DNA of 64,000 bases from Arenibacter aquaticus (GTDB lineage: Bacteria > Bacteroidota > Bacteroidia > Flavobacteriales > Flavobacteriaceae): the NCBI RefSeq assembly GCF_003957295.1, contig NZ_RQPJ01000003.1, positions 627,135-691,134 on the forward strand, in the 5' to 3' direction. Shown in pieces: positions 248 to 20,304 of the stretch; position 1 is the first letter of the stretch, and every line of letters begins with the position of its first letter. The position numbers and the translations under genes are program-made. The notes beneath the pieces are model-generated. The model was not told the origin of the DNA. It saw only the letters and a program-made list of their open reading frames with translations, and ran no database searches.

Positions 248-1387
248 ATGAAAAAAACTATTATTGGACTATTATTAATTACAGGGTCTTTCGCAATGGC
301 TCAAAAAAAGGTACATCAAATTGCCGAAGGCGTTAAGGTGCATCAAGACCTATTCAATTCAACAATGGCGGAAGGGGTCGCCTGCTACAGGATACCAGCA
401 ATTGTAACAGCCCCTAATGGAGATGTCATTGCGGCCATAGATGAAAGGGTTCCTTCTTGTGGTGATCTTAAATATAGTAAAGATATTAATATCGTGATCA
501 GAAGAAGTAGTGATAACGGAAAAACATGGACGCCAATTGAAACAGTGGTGGATCTCCCATTCGGTAAATCGGTATCTGATCCTTCAATTATTGTAGACGA
601 AGATACTAAAGAAATATTCATGTTTTACAATTATATGGATTTGGAAAACGAACGCGATATCTATTACTTCCATATGGTAAAAAGTTCTGACAACGGTAAG
701 ACTTGGAGCCAACCACAAGACATTACAAAACAGATTGCTAAAGAAGAATGGAAAAATGATTTTAAATTTATAACCTCTGGACGAGGAATTCAAACTAGCT
801 CAGGAAAATTATTACATACTATGGTAAATCTAAATAATGGATTACATCTCTTTGCAAGTGATGACCATGGAAAATCATGGTATTTAATAGATACTCCAAT
901 TAAACCGGCAAATGAATCCAAAGTAGTGGAATTAGCCGATGGAAGATGGATGATCAACTCTAGAGTGAACAAAAGCGGGATGCGATATACCCATATCTCC
1001 AATGACGAAGGAAAAACATGGACAACTTCTCCAGAACCAGAACTAATAGATCCTGGCTGTAATGGCAGTATAATAAGGTACACCTCCATTGAGCAAGGGT
1101 TTAAAAAAAATAGATTACTCTTTTCAAATGCAAAAATGGAAAAAGGAAGAAAGAACATGACCGTTCGAATTAGCTATGATGAAGGTACAACTTGGTCAAA
1201 AGGTAAAACTATTTATACCGGGGGTTCGGCTTATTCTTCTTTGACCGTTTTAGAGAATGGGGATATCGGATTGTTCTTTGAAAAAGATGGCTATAAAGAG
1301 AATCCATTTGTAAGTTTCTCTTTAAAATGGCTGACCGATGGTGATGATAAATGGAGAAAACCCTCATCAAAACAAAAAGGACATTAG
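248..1387 (+). CDS. Exported exo-alpha-sialidase (GH33, BNR/Asp-box)
   Basis: A 379-residue protein with a signal peptide (residues 1-19, ending AMAQ). It carries the sialidase YRIP motif at 47-50, which holds the first arginine of the substrate carboxylate triad. At least five Asp-boxes follow, the first being SSDNGKTW at 87-94, then SSDNGKTW, SDDHGKSW, SNDEGKTW and a degenerate SYDEGTTW. A YSSL stretch followed by a Glu-containing strand near residues 335-355 matches the nucleophile Tyr/Glu region. The family hydrolyses terminal sialic acids from glycans with a six-bladed propeller. The lack of a lipobox suggests a periplasmic or secreted enzyme. It follows the creatininase fragment closely and is convergent with the AraC gene. 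Substrate linkage cannot be judged from sequence. Confidence 0.88.
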   Translation: MKKTIIGLLLITGSFAMAQKKVHQIAEGVKVHQDLFNSTMAEGVACYRIPAIVTAPNGDVIAAIDERVPSCGDLKYSKDINIVIRRSSDNGKTWTPIETVVDLPFGKSVSDPSIIVDEDTKEIFMFYNYMDLENERDIYYFHMVKSSDNGKTWSQPQDITKQIAKEEWKNDFKFITSGRGIQTSSGKLLHTMVNLNNGLHLFASDDHGKSWYLIDTPIKPANESKVVELADGRWMINSRVNKSGMRYTHISNDEGKTWTTSPEPELIDPGCNGSIIRYTSIEQGFKKNRLLFSNAKMEKGRKNMTVRISYDEGTTWSKGKTIYTGGSAYSSLTVLENGDIGLFFEKDGYKENPFVSFSLKWLTDGDDKWRKPSSKQKGH

Positions 1388-4993: not shown

Positions 4994-5716
4994 TTATATC
5001 TTTTTTTTATAAATTCTATCAAAATGTGGTTCAAGGTGCCTCCTCATAGCTGTTCGAAAAGTATCAGGTGTGCCCACTTTTAAATTATCCATCAGCATTC
5101 TATGCGTAACAAATTGCCCACTTGAATATTCATATTCTTCTAAAAGAAGATCGGAATGATTAACGTAAACATACTCAAAAACTGGAAGAAGTAAATCTTG
5201 AAACTTTTTCAAAGTATCATTATTGGACATTTCATATAGTTTGCCGTGAAAAGCGACTTCTTTGTCCAATGCAAAAACAGACGTTTTAGAAGAGCTTTCT
5301 TCTTCCAATTCAACAATTTTTTCCAACTCTAACATGTCTTTCTCTGTTTTATGCTCGAATAAGAAATCAGCCATGCCCATTTCCATTATAAGTCTGAGCT
5401 CAAATAAATTTTTAAGGGTATCAGACCCAAGAAGTGTAGGATCGAGGATACGTTGAAAGTTATTCATTATATCAGGATTGGTCAAAACCATCCCCCTATG
5501 CTTTTTGGACTCTATTATACCGAGTGTACGTAACCTTAATAGCGCCTCTCTGACAACGGTCCTACTAACACCAAATGATTTTGCAAAATCCAATTCTTTA
5601 GGAATGGCATCACCAGCTTTAAGCCTATTTTCTTTAATATATTCAAGCAAACCTAATTCCACCTTATCAACTAATGAAGAGGTCTCAATAGGCTTAATTT
5701 TCGATAGTTTTTTCAT
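4994..5716 (-). CDS. GntR-family (FadR/FCD) transcriptional regulator
   Basis: A 240-residue regulator. Residues 13-80 form the winged helix (SFGVSRTVVREALLRLRTLG), and residues 95-230 are an all-helical FCD effector domain with the metal-site histidines of FHGKLYE, THRML and RRHLEPHFD. It is divergent from the epimerase gene. The repeated palindrome TTATGT-N3-ACATWW lies in this intergenic region and at two other promoters of the locus. Its GT-N3-AC core agrees with the known FadR-subfamily recognition pattern. Operators placed just after the -7 boxes suggest a repressor relieved by a sugar metabolite. The ligand may be a sialic acid or an N-acylhexosamine derivative, which is an inference. 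Confidence 0.88.
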   Translation of the reverse strand: MKKLSKIKPIETSSLVDKVELGLLEYIKENRLKAGDAIPKELDFAKSFGVSRTVVREALLRLRTLGIIESKKHRGMVLTNPDIMNNFQRILDPTLLGSDTLKNLFELRLIMEMGMADFLFEHKTEKDMLELEKIVELEEESSSKTSVFALDKEVAFHGKLYEMSNNDTLKKFQDLLLPVFEYVYVNHSDLLLEEYEYSSGQFVTHRMLMDNLKVGTPDTFRTAMRRHLEPHFDRIYKKKI

Positions 5717-5759
5717 CTAATTCTCTATAGTTTGTTTATGACTAGAAAAAGTAATTCTA

Positions 5760-5767
5760 CAAAATTA
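5760..5767 (-). promoter_or_regulatory. -7 promoter box of the GntR gene
   Basis: Reading the minus strand, this octamer is TAATTTTG, a perfect TAnnTTTG Bacteroidetes -7 element, 44 bp before the regulator's ATG at 5716. No clear TTG -33 box is present 20 bp upstream, where the candidate operator 5781-5795 lies instead. Confidence 0.5.
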
Positions 5768-5780
5768 CTATAGTTATCCA

Positions 5781-5795
5781 TTATGTCACACATTT
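5781..5795. promoter_or_regulatory. Candidate GntR operator, autoregulatory position
   Basis: TTATGT-CAC-ACATTT has the same half-sites and 3-bp spacing as the operators at 5861, 18729 and 19090. It lies upstream of the GntR -7 box, over the expected -33 region, so binding there would control the regulator's own gene. Confidence 0.55.
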
Positions 5796-5850
5796 TTTTT
5801 TAATGAATAAGTTAATTATATAAAATTATCCTAATATAATAAAAATTTAC

Positions 5851-5875
5851 TAAATTTGAATTATGTATAACATAA
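5851..5875 (+). promoter_or_regulatory. Epimerase promoter with overlapping GntR operator
   Basis: TAAATTTG (5851-5858) is a perfect -7 box. The 15-bp palindrome TTATGT-ATA-ACATAA (5861-5875) starts 10 bp after the start of the box and would cover the transcription start. The epimerase ATG at 5880 is then only about 15 nt into the message. The same spacing is seen at the susC and lrgA promoters. Confidence 0.7.
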
Positions 5876-5879
5876 TAAT

Positions 5880-7064
5880 ATGCGAATGGTTTATTCTGAG
5901 ATATATAAAAATGCATTATTTAACGATATAATCCCGTTCTGGGAAAAGCATTCACTAGATAATAACAATGGAGGTTACTTCACATGTTTGGACCGCAATG
6001 GCGACGTTTACGATACAGATAAGTTTGTTTGGCTGCAAGGTAGGCAAGCCTGGACTTTTTCTATGCTCTACAACAATGTAGACAGAAAAGACAATTGGTT
6101 GAAAACTGCAAAATTGGGAATCGATTTTATCAGGAAATATGGTATGGACAAAGACGGAAATTTCTATTTTTCGCTCACAAAATCGGGTAAGCCACTAGTT
6201 CAACCCTATAATATATTTTCAGACTGCTTTGCTGCTATGGCCTTTAGCCAATATGCCAAAGCTACCGGAGACCAAGAAATAAAATCCTTAGCAAAACAAA
6301 CCTATTTTAACATAATAAATAAAAAAGAAAACCCTAAAGGCGTATATGAAAAAAGTACCGACTATCGCCCCCTCAAAGGCTTTGCCTTGCCCATGATACT
6401 CTCAAATTTAGTTTTAGAATTAGAAGATGTTTTGGATTCAAAAGAAGTGGAGAAAACCATCAACTACAGTGTGAAGGAAGTAATGGAAGTGTTCTATCAA
6501 AAAGACTCAGGAATTATTTATGAATTTGTTACACCTGATGGAACTATTGAGGACAGTTTTAATGGTCGACTATTGAATCCAGGACATGGAATTGAAGCAA
6601 TGTGGTTTATGATAGATATCGGGGTAAGAAGCAAAAATGAAGACTTGATAAAAAAAGCTACAAAGGTTATTCTCAACATATTGGAATACAGCTGGGATGA
6701 GCAATATGCTGGCATATTCTATTTTATGGATGCAAAGGGCAAACCTATGCAACAACTAGAATGGGATCAGAAGTTATGGTGGGTACATTTAGAAACATTG
6801 GTAGCCTTGTTAAAAGCCTATGAACATACCCAAAACGAAGAAGTATGGAAATGGTTTCTAAAGGTTCACCGATACTCCTGGAGCCACTTCCCTGATCCTG
6901 AAAATGGGGAATGGTTTGGGTACTTGAATAGGCAAGGGAAACCTTTGAATAGCCTGAAAGGTGGCAAATGGAAAGGATGTTTTCATGTGCCAAGGGCAAT
7001 GTATCAGTGTTGGAAAAGCCTAGAACAAATTGAGTGTATCCAAAGTAGCAAGAAAGTCAAATAA
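5880..7064 (+). CDS. N-acylglucosamine 2-epimerase (AGE) family protein
   Basis: A 394-residue (alpha/alpha)6-barrel protein without a signal peptide. Family motifs visible are WLQGRQAWTFSML near residue 55, NPGHGIEAMWFM near 235, KLWWVHLETLVAL near 300 and KGCFHVPRAM near the end. Together these supply the conserved Arg, Trp and His residues of the active site. AGE enzymes interconvert N-acetylmannosamine and N-acetylglucosamine, the step after sialic acid lyase in Bacteroidetes. Some relatives act on other sugars. The ATG at 5886 is an alternative start. It is followed by the NanM/symporter gene after 196 bp. No lyase gene (nanA) is present in the window. Confidence 0.85.
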   Translation: MRMVYSEIYKNALFNDIIPFWEKHSLDNNNGGYFTCLDRNGDVYDTDKFVWLQGRQAWTFSMLYNNVDRKDNWLKTAKLGIDFIRKYGMDKDGNFYFSLTKSGKPLVQPYNIFSDCFAAMAFSQYAKATGDQEIKSLAKQTYFNIINKKENPKGVYEKSTDYRPLKGFALPMILSNLVLELEDVLDSKEVEKTINYSVKEVMEVFYQKDSGIIYEFVTPDGTIEDSFNGRLLNPGHGIEAMWFMIDIGVRSKNEDLIKKATKVILNILEYSWDEQYAGIFYFMDAKGKPMQQLEWDQKLWWVHLETLVALLKAYEHTQNEEVWKWFLKVHRYSWSHFPDPENGEWFGYLNRQGKPLNSLKGGKWKGCFHVPRAMYQCWKSLEQIECIQSSKKVK

Positions 7065-7260
7065 GATTTCTGTAATGTCCATAAATTATATAAGTAAATT
7101 GAATTCATTCTCATATTATAATTCAGTTGCTTATTAATTAAGACAAATTGACATTTCCTAAAATTTACAATATGACACTTGTATATGTTAAAAGATAATA
7201 TTTAGCACATAATTTATTCAATTACATTGTATTTATTAAAATCCAATTAAAAAACATTTC

Positions 7261-9882
7261 ATGAAGGTATATAGATCAATTTTTTGCTCATTTTTCCTTT
7301 TACTCCTTTCCTCATTGCTGTTCTCGCAAAACTCCACAAGCATAGACCTTACTTACGAGCCCGCGCTACCTCCATTGGCCAATGACAATGTATCCTTGGG
7401 ATACGCCGGTATGATGGGTGGTGTTCAGGATAACATTGTGATTGCGGCGGGTGGGGCCAATTTCCCAGCCGGGAAACCCTGGGAAGGGGGTACTAAAGAA
7501 TGGTATGACTCTATATATTACCTTGAGAATGGAACTTGGACTCTATCAAAAAAAACTTTACCAATACCATTGGCATATGGGGCATCTGTTTCTGTCCCTG
7601 GAGGAATACTATTTATTGGTGGCAACAACAAAAACCACATCAGCAACGAGGTGTTTCAGGTCTCATTTAACAAAAGCAAAAAAGAAATAGAACTGGAATA
7701 CTATCCTAATTTGCCCGAACCCTTGGCCTATACCAACGCAGTCTATACAGATGGTTATGTATATGTTGCTGGGGGAATGAATGAGGAGACAAGTTCAAAT
7801 TCCTTCTATCGGATTAACCTAGAAAATAAAGATCACTGGGAAAAGCTTCAAGATTTTCCAGGAGAACCCCGGGCCGTGCATTCCATGGCGGTACAGGAAA
7901 CTTCCACCTCCAAGAGCATTTTCTTAATAGGTGGAAGGAATCAAAAAAAAGACGAAGTATCTACCCATCTGACCAATTTTCTTTCCTATGATATCAAGAA
8001 AAGGCAATGGAAGAATGAAGGAGATTTGGTACTGAACGGCTCAAAAAAAGTAATCATGGGTGCCTCTGCAGAACCATCAGGATCCATGCATATCCTGGTC
8101 TATGGAGGGTCAGATAAAGTGTTGTTCGAGCAATTGGAATCATTGGCAATAGAGATTGAAACAGCAAAAAATGACAGTATTGCACAGTATTTAACAAAGA
8201 AAAAAAATCAAATTCTCATAAATCACCCAGGTTTTAGTAATGAAGTATTGGCTTATAATACTATGACTAACAAATGGTTTATTTTTGATACCTTAGACGT
8301 TAAACTTCCTGTTACCTCCCTAGGCATAAAAAAAGAGGACAGTTTCTTACTAGTTTCAGGAGAGGTCTCCCCGGGAATACGGACTCCGAAAATCTTTAAA
8401 TTTCAAGATACCGAGGCAACCCACGTTTTTGGAGTTCTTAATTATGTAGTGTTAATTTTATACCTACTAATTTCCTTATTCATTGGGGTTTATTTCGCAC
8501 GTAAACAAAAATCAACCGATGATTATTTTGTTGGCGGTGGTAGAATTCCATGGTGGGCTTCGGGATTAAGTGTCTTTGGCACACTTTTAAGCGCAATAAC
8601 TTTTATGGCCATACCAGCGAAATCATTCACAACGGATTGGTCTTTCTTTATGCTGAATATTGCAGCTATTGCAATAACACCAATTATTGCCTTCATTTTT
8701 ATTCCATTTTTTAATCAGTTACATATAGCAACGGCATACGAATATTTGGAGAAAAGATTCAACTATTTTGCCCGGGCATTTGGCAGTATTTCATTTATCA
8801 TTTTCCAATTGGGAAGAATAGGAATAGTGCTTTTGTTACCTTCATTGGCCATCTCTATAGTTACAGGTATCTCCGTAGAAACCTGTATTTTATTAATGGG
8901 GATATTATGTGTTCTTTACACCACTTTTGGTGGTATAGAAGCAGTAATTTGGACCGATGTATTGCAAGTAATTGTACTTTTGGGTGGTAGTATTGTCGCT
9001 ATAATCTGGATTCTAATGCATACAGATTCCTCCATAACTGAAATAATAGCCTATGCCTCCGAAAAGGAAAAGTTCAATATATTGAATTTCGACATCAATT
9101 TTACCGAATCCACATTTTGGGTAGTCTTTATAGGAGGATTAGCTTCTGCAATGGTCACACAAGGAACCGATCAAACTGTAGTTCAACGATTTTTAACCAG
9201 CAACAATATCAAGGACTCACAGAAGACATTATACACTAATGCATTTCTTACACTTCCCGCGACCATCATATTTTTTGGAATAGGCACATTATTATATATT
9301 TTTTACTCTGAAATGCCTGAGAAACTTTCTCCTGCAATTTCCAATAATGATTCGCTATTTCCTTGGTATATAGTAAAGGAGCTGCCTAAGGGCGTTTCGG
9401 GCTTACTAATTGCAGGTATCTTTTCGGCGGCAATGTCCAGTATCAGCAGCAGTTTAAATTCAGTTTCCACAGCATTTTGCAACGATTTGTTCAAACGGTA
9501 CAATCCTAATATACCGGATATAAAACTACTTAAGGTCGCTAGGATCATAACCGTTATTATAGGAATATTAGGAGTTATATTGGCCTTATGGATGGCAAAT
9601 TCGAATATTAAATCCTTATGGGACCAGTTTTATAGATTTCTAGGATTGTTTACTGGAGGATTGGGAGGTATGTTCTTATTAGGAATGCTTACCAAACGTG
9701 CCAATTCCACAGGTACAATAATAGGCTTGGTACTAAGTGCCTTATTATTATGGTATGTGAGTGTCTACACCCCAATAAATTTTCTTTTATACTCTTTAAT
9801 AGGGGTCGGTTCTTGCTTTATTTTTGGCTATATTTTTAGTCTAATCTTTAAAGATAAGACAAGTAGATCAACCCGCACCTAA
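7261..9882 (+). CDS. Permuted NanM-like kelch mutarotase fused to a sodium/solute symporter
   Basis: An 873-residue two-module protein. After a signal peptide (1-23, ending LLFSQ) come kelch repeats to about residue 385 (GGVQDNIVIAAGG, GGILFIGG, DGYVYVAGGM, SIFLIGGRN, ILVYGGS). These resemble the cyclically permuted family of the sialic acid mutarotase NanM/YjhT. From about 390 to the end is an SSS-family permease with roughly 13 membrane segments and the motifs DDYFVGGGRIPWWASGLS and GTDQTVVQRFL. The propeller would sit in the periplasm and hand an anomer directly to the sodium-driven carrier. In a sialidase locus, uptake of free sialic acid is the best guess. Confidence 0.85.
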   Translation: MKVYRSIFCSFFLLLLSSLLFSQNSTSIDLTYEPALPPLANDNVSLGYAGMMGGVQDNIVIAAGGANFPAGKPWEGGTKEWYDSIYYLENGTWTLSKKTLPIPLAYGASVSVPGGILFIGGNNKNHISNEVFQVSFNKSKKEIELEYYPNLPEPLAYTNAVYTDGYVYVAGGMNEETSSNSFYRINLENKDHWEKLQDFPGEPRAVHSMAVQETSTSKSIFLIGGRNQKKDEVSTHLTNFLSYDIKKRQWKNEGDLVLNGSKKVIMGASAEPSGSMHILVYGGSDKVLFEQLESLAIEIETAKNDSIAQYLTKKKNQILINHPGFSNEVLAYNTMTNKWFIFDTLDVKLPVTSLGIKKEDSFLLVSGEVSPGIRTPKIFKFQDTEATHVFGVLNYVVLILYLLISLFIGVYFARKQKSTDDYFVGGGRIPWWASGLSVFGTLLSAITFMAIPAKSFTTDWSFFMLNIAAIAITPIIAFIFIPFFNQLHIATAYEYLEKRFNYFARAFGSISFIIFQLGRIGIVLLLPSLAISIVTGISVETCILLMGILCVLYTTFGGIEAVIWTDVLQVIVLLGGSIVAIIWILMHTDSSITEIIAYASEKEKFNILNFDINFTESTFWVVFIGGLASAMVTQGTDQTVVQRFLTSNNIKDSQKTLYTNAFLTLPATIIFFGIGTLLYIFYSEMPEKLSPAISNNDSLFPWYIVKELPKGVSGLLIAGIFSAAMSSISSSLNSVSTAFCNDLFKRYNPNIPDIKLLKVARIITVIIGILGVILALWMANSNIKSLWDQFYRFLGLFTGGLGGMFLLGMLTKRANSTGTIIGLVLSALLLWYVSVYTPINFLLYSLIGVGSCFIFGYIFSLIFKDKTSRSTRT

Positions 9883-10965
9883 GAAAAGACATAAGCTCTG
9901 CACAGTATGAAATTCGAAAATAGAACCGAATCAGGTCCCAATAGAAAGCTACGACACTTATAAAATTTAATTATTGTGTCATAAAATGCAGTAAACAAAG
10001 GAATTGACAGTTACCATAATGGCAACAAAAATAATATTATATCGATTGCAATTGCAGCCAATTTTTTCCATTAAGAACCTTTGTAAGAAAGGTATTAAAT
10101 AAAAAAATACTATAAAATAATCCCAAATAAAGAAAATTTAAACCAACATACAATTAGGATGAACACCTAAATAACCTCACAACCACCTGAACCCCTATCC
10201 AATATAGCCTCTATTTCAAATATAAACTAATACCGAAAATATCGTGAGTATCCAACATAGGACGTAAAGAACTAGAAATAGACACAAAAACAGGATGTTC
10301 TCAATACTGCATCTTTCTGTACTAGTGGTTTGATCGCTACCAACGGCGAAGTATCCAAATTAGGACACAATAACTAAAAATTTTGGAAATACGGTGAAAA
10401 AAAACAGCCCTTGGCGCTGGAAGCTGAATTTTGAGCAAAAAATAAAATGGATACAGTTCTTTAACCACATACTGAATTTGAACTTAACATACATATCTAA
10501 AGGAGAGGATATTTCTCGTGTAAGCGCTACTTACAGTACAAGAGTTCTTTAACTATTTTGTTGACCCGCTTGGATCAAAATGGCTGCGTAACGGGAAAAA
10601 CTCTCATATCACTAATACCTTCTGGGAATTTCATTTTTATTTCAAATGGAAATAAGCCCTAGTCTAAACATGCAGTAAATTCAGAATTATCTGAAAATAA
10701 TCATTATTAGTAGAAACAAAATAATAGAATAACAATTAAAGAATGTGACCCAACTGTTTGTTAGTGCTTGATCTCATGTTAAAGACAATTACTTTTTTCG
10801 TGGGAGACAAACCTCAATTTACCTCCTTCCCTTGAATTAGACAGCAATACAAGACTATATAATTGGCCTTTGGCCTGGAAACCAAATCCCATCATACAAA
10901 TTAGAATATTCTCATAAATGTTCAATATCAATCAAATAACACAAACATCAAAATTTGCTCCTAGC
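9883..10965. other. Gene-free 1.08-kb spacer, possibly decayed coding DNA
   Basis: No credible open frame is present on either strand. Short in-frame stretches look protein-like, for example around 10290-10370 (ASFCTSGLIATNGEVSKLG) and 10545-10655, but are broken by stops and could not be assigned to a family. The spacer separates the convergent symporter and sulfatase genes. A decayed carbohydrate-utilisation gene is possible but unproven. Confidence 0.35.
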
Positions 10966-12477
10966 TCAATTAGAATTGAAATACCCGGGATAGCGCCATT
11001 TGAAGTTTTTGTTACGACTATAGGAATGGTTTGGAAAATGCTTATTTATAGAGTCAATTTCCTTGTTAAACCTCTTAAATTTTAAAGGATCAGCCAAAGG
11101 ATCCTTGGTTTCCTGCTGCCAGGTTTCTAAGGCGGACTTCATCCTGTATAAGATATCTTGAAACTCACTATCACCTGCTAGATTATAAAATTCGTAAGGA
11201 TCACTTTGTAGATCGTATAATTCATATTTAGGTGGATTTCTCCATGTTCTATAGGCATTGATTACCTCTGGTGATGCACTCTTAATTTCCGCTACTTCCG
11301 TTCCTGCATCAAAATGCCCATTTATATGTGTCTCATAAAAGGCATAATGAGGATTTTCCTTTCCATGCAACATGTTCAATATCAACTTAAATCTGTCATC
11401 CCTTACGCTTCTTCTCGGATAATATAATAAACTTGTGGATCCGTTACCCCCTGCAAATATATACTTCCTGTTATTCTTCACATGAGCTCCTTTCAATAAA
11501 GGCAATATCGACATACCTGGAAGATTTTTCGGGAAATCCGCTTCTGCAATATCAAGGAAGGTCGGTAATAGATCGATCGTATTAACTAATTCCATTTGAC
11601 GAACGTTCTTCGCCTCTAGGTTCGGATCTTTTATGATTAGTGGGACACGTAAACCCGCCTCATAGTTACTACATTTTCCTCTAGAGAATTGTGCTCCATG
11701 ATCTCCCAAATATATAATAATAGTATTTTCCGCTTTCCCCGAAGCTTTGAGCTTTTGTAGGAGCATCCCTACGGATTCGTCCAATCTGTTGATGCTATTA
11801 TAATAGTTAGCCGTATATTCCCTTAAGCGTTCACTATCAGCACCTATAAAGGGCAAGGAAGCATTCAAATCACTCCCATCCAAAGGATCTTTGGGCATCC
11901 CCTCAACTTGTTTTTGTAACGGGAAATGGGCATCGGGATAATTCACCATTAAAAAGAAGGGATTATCCGATCCCACAATGAAATCATATGCTTCCTCTGC
12001 ATATTCTTTCAGATCCTTCTTTCCAAAATTACTACCGGGGATTGCACTAAAATCGAAAGGAATTTCCTTTTCTGGGTTTACATGAAGCTTTCCTATAATA
12101 CCAGTGGAATATCCCGCTTCATTCAAATATTTTGGTAGAGTTTTTATGTTATCGTACATTTTAAACTTATGGGTAGCCAACCCTATCTGTCCATTTTGAT
12201 GTGGATATAACCCTGTAAAAATCACCGCCCGGGAAGGACTACACACACTATAAGGAACGAATGCCCGTTCGAACAACACTCCTTCCTTAGCCAAACCATC
12301 CAAATTGGGCGTGCTTACCTCCTTAACACCATAACAACCAAGGTCTGGACCGTTGTCCTCGGACACAATCAATAAAATATTAGGTCTTTGCCTATTTATT
12401 TCCTCGGCTGATTTACAACCAGATATAAATAATGAAAAAAAGGATAAAATCAAAATAGTCATTACTGATGTATTCAT
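10966..12477 (-). CDS. S1-family sulfatase, sulfamidase (SGSH)-like lipoprotein
   Basis: A 503-residue protein with a lipoprotein signal ending ISGC at C21. The sulfatase motif C79-S-P-S-R83 carries the cysteine converted to formylglycine. Metal ligands are seen in LLIVSEDNGPD and LGDHGAQ. The stretch after the motif (TGLYPHQNGQIGL, then TGIIGKLHVNPE and PFDFSA) closely follows human N-sulfoglucosamine sulfohydrolase, so this is probably an S1_8-type enzyme. It would remove N- or O-sulfate from an aminosugar glycan in the periplasm or at the surface. It is the last gene of the susC-susD-sulfatase-sulfatase operon, 10 bp after its partner. A formylglycine-generating enzyme is not in the window. 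Confidence 0.87.
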   Translation of the reverse strand: MNTSVMTILILSFFSLFISGCKSAEEINRQRPNILLIVSEDNGPDLGCYGVKEVSTPNLDGLAKEGVLFERAFVPYSVCSPSRAVIFTGLYPHQNGQIGLATHKFKMYDNIKTLPKYLNEAGYSTGIIGKLHVNPEKEIPFDFSAIPGSNFGKKDLKEYAEEAYDFIVGSDNPFFLMVNYPDAHFPLQKQVEGMPKDPLDGSDLNASLPFIGADSERLREYTANYYNSINRLDESVGMLLQKLKASGKAENTIIIYLGDHGAQFSRGKCSNYEAGLRVPLIIKDPNLEAKNVRQMELVNTIDLLPTFLDIAEADFPKNLPGMSILPLLKGAHVKNNRKYIFAGGNGSTSLLYYPRRSVRDDRFKLILNMLHGKENPHYAFYETHINGHFDAGTEVAEIKSASPEVINAYRTWRNPPKYELYDLQSDPYEFYNLAGDSEFQDILYRMKSALETWQQETKDPLADPLKFKRFNKEIDSINKHFPNHSYSRNKNFKWRYPGYFNSN

Positions 12478-12487
12478 AGGTCTATGT

Positions 12488-13891
12488 TTATTGTATTTTT
12501 ATATAAGGAGCTTCTTCCATAACCTCCTTGTGATAAGAAATCAATGCTTTTTTTAATTTTTTAAATATCCTTGGTTCAGATTTTGAAATATCCATCACTT
12601 GATATTGATCATGTTTGATATTGTACAATCTAAAATCTGTAAGTCCTGTACTTTTAATAACACTTACCTCTTTTGGGTGGAACCTCCCACCTTTATGAAA
12701 GTCACCCGCATCCCATTGTGCCCCTATAACAAAATCACCTTCCCTTAATAAAGATTGTGGTCCTCCCCATGGATCATAGAAATGCCAATGCAAAGACTTA
12801 TTTCTTTTTAATTTCTCATTATAAAAAATTGGACTTATATCCGTACCATCCAGAACGAGCTCTTTAGGCATTTCAATTCCTGCCAATTTGGAAAGTGTTG
12901 GAAAAATGTCAGTGTTAGAGATTGGTGTTGCGTTGATTTGTCCTGGCGCAATCTTCCCCTTCCACCTAAATATTCCTGGCACTCTTAGACCTCCCTCAAA
13001 CATATGGCGCTTATAGCCCTTGAAAGGACCTGCAGAGCCATGAGACTTATTAAAATAGCCATCGGGAGTATATTGCGCTGGACCATTATCCGAAGTAAAT
13101 ATAATCAAGGTGCTTTCTGACAACCCCAATTCATCCAATTTGTTTAATATTCTTCCAACCGCTCTATCCAAGTTAGCCACATTCGCATAATACTCAGCTT
13201 TCTTCCCCTGATCCAAATATTGTTCTACAAGATCTACCGGAGACATTATTGGTTCGTGTGGCTCAAGAAAAGCTATATACTGAAAAAAAGGGCGATCTGG
13301 GTCCCTTTTTTGTTCCAGCCAGCCTATTGCTTCATTTGCAACAATATCGGCTGCATAGCCCATAGTTGTAACTGCTTTCCCATTTCTAAAGAATCCTTCT
13401 GGGTCAAGGTGCCCTAGACTATACTGGCAACCAAACCAGTAATCAAAACCATGATCATTCGGTTGTGGTTGATTAGGGACATTGAACTTCCCATTTAAAT
13501 GCCACTTACCAATACTTGCTGTCTGGTATCCCTTTGTTTTCAAAATTGAAGCAATGGTCATTTCCTTTTTTGGCAAACACATAGTTGAGTCCGGGGCTAT
13601 CCAATCATATACTCCGGTCCTATAAGGCACCCTTCCTGTTAGCAATCCTGCCCTAGAAGGAGAACACATTGGAGATGAGGCATAGCAGTCCGTGAATTTT
13701 ATACCTTCTTCAGCCAATTTATCTAGATGGGGTGTCTTTATCATTGGGTGCCCGTAAATCCCAAGATCTCCGTACCCTAAATCATCAGCTAAAATAATCA
13801 CAAAGTTTGGCAAATTGGGAGTTTGAGCTTGCACCATGAGACTAGACAAACAATATCCAAGAATACAGAATACTATTTTAGATCTTTTCAT
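12488..13891 (-). CDS. S1-family arylsulfatase, exported
   Basis: A 467-residue protein with a signal peptide (1-22, ending MVQAQ). The formylglycine site is C76-S-P-S-R80 (SPMCSPSRAGLLTGRVPYRTG). Calcium ligands D36 and D37 lie in ILADDLGYGD, and a second metal and sulfate site lies in FTSDNGPAQY. The context GKWHLNGK and HGFDYWFG is typical of arylsulfatase A/GALNS-like S1 enzymes that act on sulfated hexosamines or galactose. It follows susD after a 107-bp gap that contains a terminator-like hairpin, and lies just upstream of the sulfamidase-like gene. The exact sulfate position attacked cannot be read from sequence. Confidence 0.87.
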   Translation of the reverse strand: MKRSKIVFCILGYCLSSLMVQAQTPNLPNFVIILADDLGYGDLGIYGHPMIKTPHLDKLAEEGIKFTDCYASSPMCSPSRAGLLTGRVPYRTGVYDWIAPDSTMCLPKKEMTIASILKTKGYQTASIGKWHLNGKFNVPNQPQPNDHGFDYWFGCQYSLGHLDPEGFFRNGKAVTTMGYAADIVANEAIGWLEQKRDPDRPFFQYIAFLEPHEPIMSPVDLVEQYLDQGKKAEYYANVANLDRAVGRILNKLDELGLSESTLIIFTSDNGPAQYTPDGYFNKSHGSAGPFKGYKRHMFEGGLRVPGIFRWKGKIAPGQINATPISNTDIFPTLSKLAGIEMPKELVLDGTDISPIFYNEKLKRNKSLHWHFYDPWGGPQSLLREGDFVIGAQWDAGDFHKGGRFHPKEVSVIKSTGLTDFRLYNIKHDQYQVMDISKSEPRIFKKLKKALISYHKEVMEEAPYIKIQ

Positions 13892-13924
13892 AAGTTACAC
13901 AGAATTATAATTTTATATATCATA

Positions 13925-13952
13925 AAAGAGGAAGGCCAGAAGCCCTCCCCTT
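13925..13952 (-). terminator. Attenuator-type hairpin between susD and the sulfatase genes
   Basis: On the minus strand an 11-bp stem (with G-U pairs) closes a 5-nt loop and is followed by TTTTATG. It is placed after susD and before the sulfatase start. Partial termination here would give more SusCD message than sulfatase message. Confidence 0.5.
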
Positions 13953-13998
13953 AAAACTAACTAACAACTAAACCAACTCAATATTTTCAACTAACTTC

Positions 13999-15480
13999 CT
14001 AATAGCCTGGATTTTGTTCAATTAATCCATTTAAATTGATCGTTCCCTGCGATATAGGGAACAACTTCTTGTGTTCCGACTCACCTACCAAGGTAGGCAC
14101 CAATTCAAATGCTTTTTCGAATCTTAAAAGATCATACCATCTTTTTCCCTCAAAAGACAATTCAAATAAACGCTCTTGTAATATGGCATCATCATTCTCT
14201 TCCATTGTTCCATTAATGAATTCATGTCCAGGATAATTTGCCCCATAGGCCCTTTGCCTAATAAGATTCATTTCATCTGTCGGGTCTTGGTTCAAAGCAT
14301 TTTTTGCTTCAGCAATCATCAATAAAACATCTGCATATCGGTACAGGATAACATCATCCATATACTTTCTAGTTCCGGCATCTACAAATCCTCTATACTT
14401 CAATACGGCAGAAGCATAGAATTGATCATAAACTCCGGCATTATCCGGGTTTTCAGTATTCATCAGAACAAAAGTTGCATTTTTCCGAGTATCATCATCA
14501 GCCCACTGATTTCTAAACAATTCCGATGGAGCCCACCTATTCAATCCTCCCCCTTCACCCAATAAAGCCTTGGCTGCAGGATCGCCATTGGCAGGGATTT
14601 GATCTCCTCGAATATACATGCCATCGTTAAAATTATTCCCAGATTCTAGGTCTTCGTAATGAATGGCCATTAAAATCTCCCTATTGCCTTTATTGCTATA
14701 TCTAAATATCTCGTCGTAATTACTTAATAGCTCCACATCAGCAGAATGAACACTTTCTAAGGCAGTCAGGGCGGTAGTAATGTCTGATGTACCACCTCCC
14801 ATTAGTTTTCCTGTCCATAAATAAACTTCACCCTTTAGGGCATTCACGGAAGGTTTAGACCATTGAGATCTCCCGTTGGAAAATGTATTATCAGGAAACA
14901 GCCCTAGTGCGGCATCAACATCTGATTTAACCAAATTCATAACCTCGGATACATTGTCACGTGCCTTAAAACTGTTTACTGGATCAAAACCTTCTGTTGG
15001 CTCAGTGTTCACAGGAGCATCACCCCATACCTTCGCTATGATGAAATAACAATAAGCCCTCATGGCATGTGCCTGAGCCAAAGCTATATTTTTATTTGCT
15101 TCCGAATCAAAATCGATAGAAGGAGCATATTTAATTATTAAATTTGCATCATGAATTACCGTATATAGATTCTTCCAGTCCGGGCCAGCTGCATCCCGAT
15201 CTAACGTATTCTCAAAATACCGCTCCCTTCCCTCAGAGGCTTGTAGTCCATAACTCAGCACTTCTGATCGTGCTTCTCCCCAAAAAAACAGATTGTCATT
15301 CGCATCTGATCGCAAGCGCACATACATTCCATTGACATAAGATTCAACATCTCCTTGATTCTTCCAATAAGAATTAGCTCCAATAACACTTTCAGGAGTC
15401 AAGTTTAAATCTTTTTCACAAGAGGCAACCAACAAAAAGAGTGGCAGCATACTCATCATTATAATTTTATATGTTTTCAT
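13999..15480 (-). CDS. SusD/RagB-family glycan-binding lipoprotein
   Basis: A 493-residue surface lipoprotein with signal and lipobox ending LVASC (C21). The SusD architecture is clear: an N-terminal SusD-like part with SYWKNQGDVESYVNGMY, the tetratricopeptide helix AQAHAMRAYCYFIIAKVWGD near 130-150, and a C-terminal RagB domain with DVILYRYADVLLMIAEAKN and the ending FEGKRWYDLLRFEKA. It forms the lid of a SusC transporter and captures oligosaccharide at the cell surface. It lies 32 bp after its susC partner. The operon is probably controlled by the GntR operator at 18729. Confidence 0.93.
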   Translation of the reverse strand: MKTYKIIMMSMLPLFLLVASCEKDLNLTPESVIGANSYWKNQGDVESYVNGMYVRLRSDANDNLFFWGEARSEVLSYGLQASEGRERYFENTLDRDAAGPDWKNLYTVIHDANLIIKYAPSIDFDSEANKNIALAQAHAMRAYCYFIIAKVWGDAPVNTEPTEGFDPVNSFKARDNVSEVMNLVKSDVDAALGLFPDNTFSNGRSQWSKPSVNALKGEVYLWTGKLMGGGTSDITTALTALESVHSADVELLSNYDEIFRYSNKGNREILMAIHYEDLESGNNFNDGMYIRGDQIPANGDPAAKALLGEGGGLNRWAPSELFRNQWADDDTRKNATFVLMNTENPDNAGVYDQFYASAVLKYRGFVDAGTRKYMDDVILYRYADVLLMIAEAKNALNQDPTDEMNLIRQRAYGANYPGHEFINGTMEENDDAILQERLFELSFEGKRWYDLLRFEKAFELVPTLVGESEHKKLFPISQGTINLNGLIEQNPGY

Positions 15481-15512
15481 ATTATCTGAATTTATATTTT
15501 TTTGGTTTCTTA

Positions 15513-18500
15513 TTACAATGAAACATTTAAGCCTAGTAAAAAGGTTTGTGGGTTTGGATATCTACCGCTGTCAATTCCTCCATCCTCAGGTAACAATCCT
15601 CTATAATTAGTTAAATATCCCAAGTTGCTTCCCGTCGCATATAAACGGAGATTTGTAATCCCTATTTTTTTAACCCCTGAAGTAATTGGCAGGCTATAGC
15701 TAAGGGTTATTTCTCTTAAGGCCAAATAATCACCTTTCTCATAAAAATCCGAATTCATGGCTTTACTTTGCCCCCCGCCTGTCCGGAAGTTATTATTTTG
15801 AGCCAATTGATCCGCCCAATAGTATCTCGGAATATCGGTAACATCACCCTCATTTTCCCAAGACCTTAGTACTTCCTTAGTAATTCCTATATCACCTTGC
15901 CATTGCCCTAGATAAACCCCATGCATTTCATTTTTAATAGTATGCCCTACCGAAAAATCGGTGCGTATCGTAAGACTAAGGTTTTTATAATTGAATGTGT
16001 TTGTAAAACCACCAGTCCAGTCAGGATATTCGTTACCTACATATACCCTATCTAAAGTATTTATAACACCATCATTGTTGACATCTTTAAATATGACATC
16101 ACCACCCTGCTTACTTTTATCTGACCCTGCAACCAACTCATCTATCGGCCCTGCCTGAGCTTCAGCTGTTGTAGAGTACACACCCAAAACCTCATAGGTA
16201 TACAGATCTCCCATGGTATAACCTTCCTGCAAGCCAGCCACCCACCTGGTCCCTCCGTTTTCAGGATCCGCCACCTCATAGCCTCCTATTCTATTATTTT
16301 CATTTCCATTTTCAGGCAATTTTGTTATGGTATTTTTATTATGAGAAAGGTTTAAGGCGGAGGACCATCCAAAATTCTCATTTTCAATAACACTTGCTCT
16401 TAACTCAAACTCAACTCCTTCATTATTAAGATCCCCTAAATTGGTTAGGATACTTGAAAACCCAGTAACTTTCGGCAAAGTAAAACTGGTAATTAAATTA
16501 TGAGTATCTCGATTATAATAATCAAATAACAAGGACACCCTTTTATTAAACAATCCTAAGTCAAATCCTATACCAACAGCTTCGGTTTGTTCCCACTGAA
16601 GAGCATCGTTGGACAGTGAGGAATTCAATACCGCAGCCTTTCCGTTATATTTACTTCCAACGCCATAAACCCCTTGATATTTATAATCTGATAGCTGACC
16701 GATGTTCCCTGTCACACCATAACTAGCTCTAAATTTTAAAGAACTAAAAGTAGTGGAGTTTTCATTCCAAAAATTTTCTCTATGAACATTCCAACCTGCG
16801 GAAATTCCTGGGAATGTCCCCCATTTATGATCCGCCCCCAAATTTGATGCACCGTCATGTCGAATACTAGCAGTCAAAAGATACTTTCTTTTGTAATCAT
16901 AATTAACTCTTCCAAAGAACCCTATGATGTTCCTTGTAGAAAATGAACTTGTCACATTCGTAGGTTCCGCGGAAGCATTTAAAGTTGAAATTAGATCAGA
17001 AGATGCCCCACGACCGTCCGCTCCTAAAATATATGCCTCTCTTGCTACTCGTGAAAACCCAGCCTTGGCATTTATGGAATGATCATCCTTTAGATTTTTA
17101 GCGTATGTAAAAACACCTTCTATTTGAGTAGTTACATCCTGTGCAAAATCTGCGCTGGCGTTTCTCGAATCATTAAATGATGTCGCGGTATTGAAATACG
17201 ATTTCTGAAAGGCATTATCCAAATCTTGTTCTTGAGAGTAAGAAAAAAATGGAGAAAATGTTAAATCCGAAAATATTTGGTAATCGGCACCTATAGAAAG
17301 TGCCAACCTATAATCTCTTCGTTCCTTATCAAACCTACCTAAATGATAAACTGGATTGCCTATACTCCTATTTTGACCGGGAGCCAGGGTGCCATCCTCA
17401 AACCTAAATTTGGCCGTTGGAGGCAATCCTAAAGACCTTTGAAATATTTGATTGGAGCTATATACTTGATTATTGTTTGAAGTACTGTAATTGACACGGC
17501 CCCAAACTTTGAAATTATCCCTAATATTAAATCCACCGTACATTTTGGCTGTATATCGCTCATAATCAGTTCTAAGAGCAACCCCTTCACTATTAAAATA
17601 ACCAACACTAACATCATACTCAGCACCCTCGGTGCTACCCGAAAAAGAAAGATGATGGTTTGTAGTTATTCCCGTATTAAATAATTTTTCCTGCCAATCG
17701 GTGTCCTTAAAAATTATAGTCTTAGTTGGATCCAACGGATCGGGCATACTCTCCCACCCTTCATTCAACTTATGGTCATTTACTCCAGGTTGTAAGTATT
17801 GTGTTGTAAAACTGGTATTATTCGTTAAATCATTACCAATTCCAGCTCCTACAGGCAAATCCAATCTTGAAAGGCGCTCCGGATGCTTTTCCCCTGTCGC
17901 TGCCAACCCTAGTCTACCATAATAAATATAATCACGAGCTGAAACCAAATCATATGTTTTACCAATTTGAGACATACCCGTGGTCATACTATAATTTATT
18001 TTTGGCTTACCTTTTCCTGTTTTGGTAGTCACTATAATAACGCCATTAGATGCTCGAGACCCGTAAATAGAAGCAGCAGCAGCATCCTTCAAAACTTGAA
18101 CAGATTCGATATCCGCCGGGTTCAAATCATCCATATTATTCCTAATGAGACCATCTATAATATAAAGTGGCCCAGCACCATCAGGGTTATTGATTGAAGT
18201 CCCTCCACGAATTATTATACGAGTACCTGCACCGGGCTGACCTGATGTCTGTTGTGCCCTGATACCAGAAACAGTACCTTGAAGAGCCTGTGTTGCATTA
18301 GCAAAGGGCACATTTTCCAAGACTTTAGTATCTACTTTTGAAATAGACGAAGTTAATGTTTCCCTGGATTGAGATCCATATCCCACAACCACAACTTCGT
18401 CCAGTTCAGATGCATCCTCAACCAGAGTAACATTAATTACAGATTGATTACCAACAAGGACTTCTTGTTGTGTAAAACCAAGGTAACTGAAGACCAATAC

Positions 18501-18716
18501 ATCCCCCAAGGCAGCGTTTATAGAATAATTCCCATCAAAATCACTCTGAACCCCGTTTGTGGTATTTTTCACAAGGACATTAGCACCGGGCAAAGGCTGC
18601 CCCGAATCATCTGAAATGGTTCCAGTTACAGTTTTTTCTTGCGCGTAAGCCCCCGTAATCAATAGAAGGGCCATAAAGGCGAGCAAAGAACTTAAAAATT
18701 TGTTTTTTCGTATCAT
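15513..18716 (-). CDS. SusC/RagA-family TonB-dependent outer-membrane transporter
   Basis: A 1067-residue protein with a signal peptide (about 1-25, ending AYAQ). A CarboxypepD_reg-like Ig fold follows (about 28-110, VTGTISDDSGQPLPGANVLVKNT), then a TonB box and plug containing RIIIRGGTSINNPDGAGPLYIIDG and the hallmark SIYGSRASNGVIIVTTKTG. The remainder is a 22-strand barrel ending in an aromatic-rich strand (TFLLGLNVSL). It imports oligosaccharide across the outer membrane with TonB energy. There is no N-terminal STN domain, unlike the second SusC here, so it is not expected to signal to an anti-sigma factor. That agrees with its GntR-type promoter. Confidence 0.94.
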   Translation of the reverse strand: MIRKNKFLSSLLAFMALLLITGAYAQEKTVTGTISDDSGQPLPGANVLVKNTTNGVQSDFDGNYSINAALGDVLVFSYLGFTQQEVLVGNQSVINVTLVEDASELDEVVVVGYGSQSRETLTSSISKVDTKVLENVPFANATQALQGTVSGIRAQQTSGQPGAGTRIIIRGGTSINNPDGAGPLYIIDGLIRNNMDDLNPADIESVQVLKDAAAASIYGSRASNGVIIVTTKTGKGKPKINYSMTTGMSQIGKTYDLVSARDYIYYGRLGLAATGEKHPERLSRLDLPVGAGIGNDLTNNTSFTTQYLQPGVNDHKLNEGWESMPDPLDPTKTIIFKDTDWQEKLFNTGITTNHHLSFSGSTEGAEYDVSVGYFNSEGVALRTDYERYTAKMYGGFNIRDNFKVWGRVNYSTSNNNQVYSSNQIFQRSLGLPPTAKFRFEDGTLAPGQNRSIGNPVYHLGRFDKERRDYRLALSIGADYQIFSDLTFSPFFSYSQEQDLDNAFQKSYFNTATSFNDSRNASADFAQDVTTQIEGVFTYAKNLKDDHSINAKAGFSRVAREAYILGADGRGASSDLISTLNASAEPTNVTSSFSTRNIIGFFGRVNYDYKRKYLLTASIRHDGASNLGADHKWGTFPGISAGWNVHRENFWNENSTTFSSLKFRASYGVTGNIGQLSDYKYQGVYGVGSKYNGKAAVLNSSLSNDALQWEQTEAVGIGFDLGLFNKRVSLLFDYYNRDTHNLITSFTLPKVTGFSSILTNLGDLNNEGVEFELRASVIENENFGWSSALNLSHNKNTITKLPENGNENNRIGGYEVADPENGGTRWVAGLQEGYTMGDLYTYEVLGVYSTTAEAQAGPIDELVAGSDKSKQGGDVIFKDVNNDGVINTLDRVYVGNEYPDWTGGFTNTFNYKNLSLTIRTDFSVGHTIKNEMHGVYLGQWQGDIGITKEVLRSWENEGDVTDIPRYYWADQLAQNNNFRTGGGQSKAMNSDFYEKGDYLALREITLSYSLPITSGVKKIGITNLRLYATGSNLGYLTNYRGLLPEDGGIDSGRYPNPQTFLLGLNVSL

Positions 18717-18728
18717 ACCAGTTAGTTA

Positions 18729-18776
18729 TTATGTATTACATAAGTCAATATTATAAATAAAAATTCATTAAACCAA
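18729..18776 (-). promoter_or_regulatory. susC promoter with GntR operator
   Basis: Read on the minus strand: a TTG -33 element (complement of 18774-18776), a 20-bp spacer, a -7 box TAATATTG (complement of 18746-18753), then the palindrome TTATGT-AAT-ACATAA (complement of 18729-18743), starting 10 bp after the start of the box. The susC ATG at 18716 follows 12 bp later. Confidence 0.7.
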
Positions 18777-19056
18777 ATAATGAGAGTAGTTTACAATTAA
18801 ACTATTCAACCAAATTACTCCTCGATACTAATAGCTCTTATGGCCAAAAGATCAAGAAAATAATTCAATTTACTTTCAACACCAACAATATCAAAAACAG
18901 GGCAACGTCAACCCAAATAACTAATTAACAGCATTTTATAGGGATTTAGCGTTGTTACAAAGGTATGCAACAGCCATCTAAAAAATTCAAAAATGGAAAT
19001 AACATCAACTCCAACTATTCAACTTTATCAGCAATAAATGGTATTTCAGATTTTTT

Positions 19057-19104
19057 TTGGAAATAACGATTCATTAGTGTAAAATTGCATTATGTATAAC
19101 ATTT
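19057..19104 (+). promoter_or_regulatory. lrgA promoter with GntR operator
   Basis: A TTG -33 element (19057-19059), a 20-bp spacer, a -7-like box TAAAATTG (19080-19087, one mismatch) and the operator TTATGT-ATA-ACATTT (19090-19104) have the same spacing as the susC promoter. The lrgA start is 153 bp downstream of the operator. Confidence 0.68.
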
Positions 19105-19257
19105 TAAGTTGACAATATGCTATCATCCCTGAACATACATAAAGGAGACCTTAAAATGATCTGCTATGAATCGTAAAAAAAATAATATGAAAATTGCGAT
19201 CTCACATATCGCCTACTTCTATGGTTCATAATATTAATTAAGAATGAATAATTAAAA

Positions 19258-19596
19258 ATGTTTAAAGCAGTTTTGTATATATTTCTATTCCTTGTTTTTG
19301 GGGAATTAATAGTTTACTTACTACATATTCCAATAGCAGGTAATCTTGTTGGTATGATAACTATTTTCATCGCCCTAAAGTTGAAAGTCATAAAGTTGAA
19401 AGATGTTAAACCCGCATCTGATCAATTTATAAAATATATGGTCTTATTTTTCGTGCCCTATGGAGTGGGCTTGATGACCTTACATGATATTCTGAAGATT
19501 CATTGGCTAGCAATTGTTGTGAGTACAATTATAAGTACAGTTCTAACCTTATATATAACAGGTCTAATTCTACAAAAATTCAGAAAGGATGCGTGA
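19258..19596 (+). CDS. lrgA: CidA/LrgA-family membrane protein
   Basis: A 112-residue protein with four predicted membrane helices (about 4-24, 28-44, 60-82 and 86-106). It carries the LrgA/CidA core IPIAGNLVGMI and the charged loop before FIKYMVLFFVPYGVGLM. The family was first seen as holin-like. Later work on plant PLGG1 and Bacillus PftAB showed that LrgAB pairs can carry glycolate/glycerate or pyruvate. It overlaps lrgB by 8 bp, so the two are translated together. Its place upstream of a sialidase under the shared GntR operator favours a transport role over cell lysis. The substrate is inferred only. Confidence 0.88.
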   Translation: MFKAVLYIFLFLVFGELIVYLLHIPIAGNLVGMITIFIALKLKVIKLKDVKPASDQFIKYMVLFFVPYGVGLMTLHDILKIHWLAIVVSTIISTVLTLYITGLILQKFRKDA

Positions 19597-20281
19597 GATC
19601 TATCAACAACCCCTATTTGGTATATTTATGACGCTGGTAGTTTTTTACTTGGCACAAATAATTAGTCGCAAATGGAAATTTGTACTATGTAATCCAGTTT
19701 TACTTTCGGTTGTTAGTATAATTTGCTTTTTAGTAGTTTTTAAAATTGATTTTGAAGATTATAATATTGGCGGCCAATATCTAGGTTTTTTATTAGGGCC
19801 TGTCGTCGTGTCCCTAGGGGTACTGTTCTATGAAAAATATGAACAGATAAAAGAAAACATAATACCCTTTACATCTGCCGTTTTTATCGGAGGGACTATG
19901 AGTATTCTTTCTGTTTGCAGTATAGCAGTAGTTTTAAATGCTTCGGAACCAGTTATAAGATCATTGGCACCCAAATCGGTCACCACCCCAATAGCACTGG
20001 AAATTGCCATATCCATTAACGGGATACCTTATATAGCTGCCGGTATGGTAATAGCCGTTGGAATATTTGGTAACGCCTTCGGACCAACCATTTTACGCAA
20101 TCTAGGAATAAGGGACAAAAAAGCCATTGGTGCGGCCCTTGGAACCGCCGCTCATGGTATAGGCACGGCAAGAGCTCTTGAAGAAGGAAAGTTACCTGGG
20201 GCCTATGGAGGATTGGCAATGTGCATAAACGGGTTATTGACAGCCATTATTACACCCTACATAATAAAATTATTCTTTTAG
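19589..20281 (+). CDS. lrgB: LrgB/CidB-family membrane protein
   Basis: A 230-residue integral membrane protein. Signature stretches are FLLGPVVVSLGVLFYEKYEQIKEN, LAPKSVTTPIALEIA near residue 130, and the glycine-rich GAALGTAAHGIGTARALEEG near 190-210. The start overlaps lrgA by 8 bp. LrgB forms the transport unit with LrgA, with plant glycolate/glycerate and bacterial pyruvate carriers as the characterised precedents. Sialic acid lyase releases pyruvate, and N-glycolyl sialic acid can release glycolate, so either could be the cargo here. The sialidase ATG follows 23 bp after its stop. Confidence 0.9.
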   Translation: MREIYQQPLFGIFMTLVVFYLAQIISRKWKFVLCNPVLLSVVSIICFLVVFKIDFEDYNIGGQYLGFLLGPVVVSLGVLFYEKYEQIKENIIPFTSAVFIGGTMSILSVCSIAVVLNASEPVIRSLAPKSVTTPIALEIAISINGIPYIAAGMVIAVGIFGNAFGPTILRNLGIRDKKAIGAALGTAAHGIGTARALEEGKLPGAYGGLAMCINGLLTAIITPYIIKLFF

Positions 20282-20304
20282 TACACCAATTAATTTATAT
20301 AAAC

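Follow-up and report, generated by a model that had tools for sequence, protein, structure and literature searches.

In Escherichia coli, sialic-acid genes (the sialoregulon) are repressed by NanR, a protein with GntR and FCD domains whose operator lies downstream of the polymerase site (PMC8012715). In Bacteroides, the use of sialic acid and N-acetylglucosamine is predicted to be controlled by a protein also named NanR (BT0433), which belongs instead to the ROK family (PMC3878776), whereas the regulator described below is a GntR protein. The siaC locus of Capnocytophaga canimorsus brings together gntR-like, N-acylglucosamine epimerase and sialidase genes, and no operator was found in the accessible portion of its description (PMC2533406). 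A further likeness is offered by AusR of the marine flavobacterium Zobellia galactanivorans, a local GntR repressor of a susCD-type system; some Zobellia carry the repressor gene in duplicate. AusR differs in serving alginate loci, and the likeness is one of description rather than of binding motif. All four accounts are drawn from excerpts of the published work.

The window analysed here is a stretch of 64,000 nucleotides from Arenibacter aquaticus (contig NZ_RQPJ01000003.1, positions 627,135 to 691,134), and its features are collected in Table 1. We file its locus under the FCD-type GntR repressor regulons of sialic-acid catabolism, a known kind of system. A search of open-licence PMC papers found nothing on the operator described below, nor on its binding by a GntR protein.

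Palindromes of the window and the genome

Judged by gene content, the window holds a sialic-acid utilisation (nan) locus. Genes for a DHDPS/NanA-type lyase, an N-acylglucosamine 2-epimerase (AGE), a NanM-symporter (NanM-SSF) and BNR-repeat proteins occur together both here, on contig C9, and in a paralogous locus of the same genome on contig C4. The best match of the lyase is N-acetylneuraminate lyase, yet at a score below the cutoff (160 vs 281 bits, NCBIfam). The same-strand nanA run begins 5' of the window at C9:619666, behind an operator at C9:619638, and ends in the gene at 248–1387; it encodes the NanA-type lyase, SASA/GDSL esterases, a sialidase-like protein, a sulfatase and a creatininase-type hydrolase. 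The C4 locus contains susCD, nanA, an epimerase gene, a sialidase-like gene, PhyH, a GntR paralogue, a creatininase-type gene and a second NanM-symporter gene. In both copies, the NanM-type mutarotase and the sodium:solute symporter form one protein of 873 residues (window 7261–9882; L015:5276–7897). The window regulator has an N-terminal GntR winged helix (PF00392, 55 bits, cutoff 27) and a C-terminal FCD domain (PF07729, 50.5 bits, cutoff 24.3). The GTG start at 20221 of the sialidase-like gene downstream of lrgB overlaps lrgB, and the true start probably lies later. Four sulfatases are encoded in or beside the regulon (window 10966–13891; L012:9917–11659; L013:10082–11581); our guess is that they reflect sulfated sialoglycans as food, perhaps from marine animals.

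Table 1. Features of the window, in order of position (numbered from the first letter of the window).
Feature	Position	Strand	Basis or remark
BNR-repeat sialidase-like protein, last gene of nanA run	248–1387	+	Domain match and flanking-region genes
GntR/FCD regulator, proposed repressor	4994–5716	-	Pfam GntR and FCD above cutoffs; C4 paralogue 69% identical
Possible -7 box of gntR, TAATTTTG	5760–5767 (read 5767–5760)	-	By eye
Operator 1, at gntR promoter	5781–5795		Exact match
-7 box of epimerase gene, TAAATTTG	5851–5858	+	6/6 fixed letters
Operator 2, at epimerase promoter	5861–5875		Exact match, full palindrome
N-acylglucosamine 2-epimerase (AGE)	5880–7064	+	Pfam; NCBIfam NF052547, 651 bits, cutoff 600
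Degenerate operator before NanM-symporter gene	7198–7212		1 mismatch on -, 2 on +
NanM-type mutarotase fused to sodium:solute symporter	7261–9882	+	Pfam; C4 paralogue 62% identical
Sulfatase	10966–12477	-	Pfam
Sulfatase	12488–13891	-	Pfam
SusD-type protein	13999–15480	-	Pfam
SusC-type TonB-dependent receptor	15513–18716	-	Pfam
Operator 3, at susC promoter	18729–18743		Exact match, full palindrome
-7-like box of susC, TAATATTG, first base 18753	18746–18753	-	5/6 letters; TTG with 20-bp spacer
-7-like box of lrgA, TAAAATTG	19080–19087	+	5/6 letters; TTG with 20-bp spacer
Operator 4, at lrgA promoter	19090–19104		Exact match
LrgA	19258–19596	+	Pfam
LrgB	19589–20281	+	Pfam
BNR-repeat sialidase-like protein, 3' of lrgB	20221–23112	+	ORF listing and domain match

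An earlier, sequence-only reading of this DNA had reported the palindrome TTATGT-N3-ACATWW at 5781, 5861, 18729 and 19090. Exact matches stand at all four positions and make up the whole set in the window, with six strand matches in total; two of the four are full palindromes. One hundred dinucleotide-preserving shuffles of the window gave a mean of 0.07 exact matches and a maximum of 2, and the four-site pattern is not due to chance. When two mismatches are allowed, the window contains 51 matches against 48.6 by chance, which is no excess, so only near-exact sites are informative.

Across the 5.23-Mb genome, the exact pattern occurs at 11 distinct places with 16 strand matches, against 4 strand matches for a reversed-pattern control. 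Nine of the 11 places fall in the two nan loci: six on C9 (the four in the window, 619638 before the nanA run and 612671 before a sulfatase gene) and three on C4 (293912, 304224 and 305215). The remaining two, C10:321280 and C16:282335, both lie within other ORFs, so the motif is not equally common near unrelated genes, a check that the sequence-only reading had put forward. With one mismatch allowed, the whole genome gave 32 forward matches against 33 for the control. A weak site was accepted only if a nan gene or the equivalent place in the paralogous locus spoke for it. Two were accepted: C4:299007, located 29 bp 5' of the C4 nanA gene, and the degenerate site at 7198, located 63 bp 5' of the NanM-symporter gene; the C4 paralogue of the latter gene is preceded by an exact site at a distance of 61 bp. 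The C4 NanM-symporter gene also contains a one-mismatch site (C4:306663), which was left uncounted.

The two GntR proteins of this genome share 69% identity, and their DNA-reading segments have the same sequence, GVSRTVVREA. A tree of 50 GntR rows places them in two supported clades, each of which includes Arenibacter rows (7 rows, support 100/100; 10 rows, 100/99). Arenibacter certesii also has two gntR copies (L018 and L023), both in the clade of the window protein. The operators of the two loci appear alike, which makes cross-regulation between them by the GntR paralogues likely.

Conservation, promoter position and proposed repression

We compared 48 loci of relatives that carry the GntR gene (937 kb, 87% coding); these loci are related by descent, and neither their counts nor their geometry rows are independent. 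The ATGT-N3-ACAT core occurs in them 144 times, with 132 of the sites intergenic, against 9–50 occurrences each (0–11 intergenic) for 11 other half-site permutations and 9–26 for spacers N0–N2 and N4–N7. Operators of FCD-subfamily GntR proteins are typically short palindromes with a GT-N3-AC core, and the present core has this form at the sequence level, being enriched only with the N3 spacer. Conservation in related loci, a second check proposed from the sequence, is borne out: 44 of the 48 loci have the core no more than 300 bp upstream of gntR, and 26 of 30 further loci have it within 1.5 kb of the gene. The further loci, two of which are those of this genome, come from the 29 of 299 family genomes with a GntR gene at E 1e-20 or better. 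Upstream of gntR, the core is missing from L042, at a contig end, and from three of five Capnocytophaga loci in the first set; in the second set it is missing within 1.5 kb from L080, L090, L093 and L094 (identities 62, 48, 42 and 33%). The divergent region between gntR and the epimerase gene has one core site in 31 of 34 such regions of relatives and none in three, and the window has two. Gene-site pairs within 450 bp in the 48 loci involve GntR (44), NanA (40), SusC (35), AGE (31), unlabelled ORFs (17), NanM-SSF (16), creatininase-type (7), BNR (4) and AraC-type (1) genes; nine core sites fall within genes only, and a single one lacks any neighbour.

In the Capnocytophaga loci L062, L064 and L065, gntR and the epimerase gene are kept and the palindrome upstream of gntR is gone. 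An altered recognition helix was rejected as the cause of this loss: the proteins from these loci read SRTAVREA or SRTAIREA, and those of L052, L055, L060 and L061 read SRTAVREA yet keep the site.

At the level of whole genomes, WTATGTNNNACATAW occurs at 113 places in 28 other genomes with the GntR gene, against 72 for the reversed control, among the matches listed. In 28 genomes that lack the gene, taken in listing order rather than at random, it occurs at 39 places against 67 for the control. The excess of WTATGTNNNACATAW goes with the GntR gene. These counts bear on the idea that another regulator binds the palindrome, either an AraC-type protein (encoded at 1474–2346 or L013:3569–4426) or a FadR-type paralogue from elsewhere, with the GntR gene a mere neighbour. 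AraC-type genes are present in the window locus, but only five AraC-type ORFs are labelled in the 48 loci, and for this rarity an AraC-type binder was rejected. With the core standing before gntR in nearly all of those loci and the pattern showing no excess in GntR-less genomes, we regard a different regulator as very improbable.

We give practically no credence to a reading of the palindromes as chance, as a by-product of AT-rich intergenic sequence, or as an RNA hairpin or attenuator. Relaxed forms of the motif do stay at chance or control level in the window and the genome, as described above; the exact sites, however, outnumber those of shuffles and of permuted palindromes, an excess confined to the three-base spacer. 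Where a promoter box is seen, moreover, the site begins at about -2 and would not be wholly transcribed.

The sequence-only reading had proposed that the operator starts 10 bp after the start of the -7 box at the epimerase, susC and lrgA promoters, and this holds for all three. The TTG and 20-bp spacer said to be common to susC and lrgA are also present, with the TTG 23 bp before the box start in both; the epimerase promoter has no upstream TTG within the stretch examined. The reading had claimed this geometry for three sites only and assigned the fourth to the promoter of the GntR gene, which is accurate: the best gntR box, chosen by eye, lies downstream of the operator at 5781 and would put it at about -40 to -26. 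The primary sigma factor of Flavobacterium psychrophilum reads TAnnTTTG at -12 to -5, according to an excerpt of its description (PMC9723704), so an operator 10 bp after the box start spans about -2 to +13, over the transcription start. The lrgA leader would be about 166 bases long if transcription starts near 19092 (window 19105–19257); by first start codons, the leaders of the epimerase and susC genes are about 17 and 25 bases.

Within the genome, a -7 box is found at -10 from the operator in 5 of 10 gene-directed rows. The rule fails at the window gntR gene, the C9 sulfatase gene, C4 susC (4/6 letters), C4 gntR and the C4 NanM-symporter gene. For the relatives we examined 118 gene-directed pairs, formed by AGE, SusC, NanA, NanM-SSF and creatininase-type genes and exclusive of gntR and unlabelled genes. 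A box with at least five of six letters stands at -10 in 50 of the 118 pairs, compared with an average of 2.7 per offset; a box with all six letters stands there in 32, compared with 0.85. By gene, the box is found in 30 of 31 AGE, 13 of 35 NanA and 7 of 30 SusC pairs, and in none of the 15 NanM-SSF and 7 creatininase-type pairs. At a loose cut of four letters, offset +1, which lies inside the palindrome, scores 71 and offset -10 scores 69, so only the stricter cuts inform. The proposed promoter rule is real, as seen at three of the four window sites and in the relatives, but half of the rows from this genome depart from it, and it describes a favoured arrangement rather than a law. The term "code" is too strong for a single type of operator that favours one position.

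Some GntR proteins are activators, and the same GntR protein could in principle bind these sites mainly to activate transcription, or to do both. The gntR operator lies upstream of its likely box, a position open to an activator too, and the sites at NanM-symporter and creatininase-type genes lack a box at -10. At the epimerase genes of relatives, however, the operator is fixed 10 bp after the box and over the start site, which suits a repressor. We consider activation unlikely.

On the evidence of sequence, we hold it highly probable that the palindrome is the operator of the FCD-type GntR repressor of the window and of its C4 paralogue, covering transcription starts and repressing the nan genes until a ligand releases the protein. 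The operator that both proteins are proposed to bind consists of TTATGT or ATATGT, a three-base spacer and the mirror half. A GntR dimer just downstream of the -7 box would cover the transcription start and would keep off the promoters of the epimerase gene, susCD and the sulfatase genes, lrgAB and the sialidase-like gene, the nanA operon and the C4 nan genes. Release of the repressor would follow when a ligand derived from imported sialic acid enters the FCD pocket. Candidates for this effector are Neu5Ac, modified sialic acids and sugars further down the pathway. The operator of gntR itself would overlap the -33 region, an arrangement that would permit autoregulation, and the paralogues, with a common recognition segment and operator, may each act on both loci. 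The claim of one repressor regulon is supported by the clustering of sites in nan loci and by their conservation with gntR, with the amendment that the regulon is larger than four sites and would have two paralogous repressors. The DNA rule provides a candidate operator and regulon for sialic-acid use in Flavobacteriaceae. It also yields predictions of regulon membership, for sulfatases, creatininase-type hydrolases and LrgAB among others, and the roles of these proteins in sialoglycan use become testable. Two paralogous repressors with one operator in one genome would be a handy test of cross-regulation between duplicated utilisation loci.

LrgAB and the creatininase-type gene

LrgAB is the least expected member of the regulon, and it recurs in other nan loci. 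LrgB is present in 18 of the 299 family genomes (E 1e-15 or better), eight of which also have the GntR gene; in five of these eight, this genome included, lrgB and gntR share a contig at a distance of no more than 15 kb. Of these five, all but this genome (L114–L117) have lrgAB in a same-strand run led by the operator-adjacent epimerase gene. Among the 48 loci of relatives, lrgAB adjoins the epimerase gene in two, both from Arenibacter (L056 and L063), and in most nan loci examined lrgAB is not within reach. Of the 299 genomes, 65 have a creatininase-type gene (E 1e-40 or better), as do 12 of the 18 with lrgB, and in eight of the 18 (L114–L120 and L122) this gene lies within 2.5 kb of lrgB. 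It is possible that this gene and lrgAB form a small functional unit of their own. Around the pair in L119, L120 and L122, a 20-kb stretch has no other recognised nan gene, and in L118 the pair has a pectic acid lyase and a sialidase-like gene among its neighbours. Its occurrence away from nan genes and near a pectic acid lyase suggests that the pair may serve other substrates.

The NanA reaction releases pyruvate. LrgAB of Streptococcus mutans and PftAB of Bacillus subtilis are described as pyruvate transport systems in the excerpts available (PMC6790026, PMC5626966). The proteins described here belong to the same LrgA and LrgB families (Pfam), and differ in standing behind a sialic-acid operator and within nan runs of relatives. 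With relatives that carry pyruvate and a pathway that frees it, the transport of a pathway product by LrgAB is a fair guess, against which stand the genomes where the pair lies apart from recognised nan genes or beside a pectic acid lyase. More tentatively, and with somewhat more doubt than confidence, we suggest that LrgAB and the creatininase-type amidohydrolase jointly handle metabolites of sialic-acid catabolism, as a module controlled by the same operator. The freed acid moved by LrgAB would be the pyruvate of the NanA reaction or, where sialic acids are modified, glycolate or a similar acid, and two paralogous repressors would gate both loci through one operator. If this is true, the holin-like family gains a defined catabolic role in Bacteroidota. 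In open-licence PMC papers we found nothing on LrgAB in connection with sialic acid.

Comparison with E. coli NanR

Among solved structures, the best single-sequence match of the window GntR protein is NanR (6on4, E 1.6e-11); with a two-sequence profile, 6az6 (another GntR chain) and 9jpj outscore NanR. The best NCBIfam match is likewise NanR (NF003011), at 94.5 bits and far below the cutoff of 260 for that curated family. The 32-residue N-terminal extension of E. coli NanR is not apparent here (240 vs 263 residues, with the alignment starting at 7 vs 24). Polar contacts of E. coli NanR with Neu5Ac are made by Arg128, Asn165, Asp172, His176, Arg203, His214, Asn215, Ser218, Gln221 and His244, as given in excerpts of PMC8012715. 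In a weak alignment read by hand, Arg128, His176 and His244 are identical in the window protein, Asp172 is replaced by Glu and six contacts differ. The same excerpts describe the E. coli operator as (GGTATA)3, bound by three NanR dimers (PMC8012715), whereas the sites described here are single palindromes, and inspection by eye finds no tandem GGTATA at the four window sites. The candidate operator of Flavobacteriaceae contrasts with both described arrangements, that of Bacteroides, where the predicted regulator is an unrelated ROK protein, and that of E. coli, where a GntR protein uses another operator.
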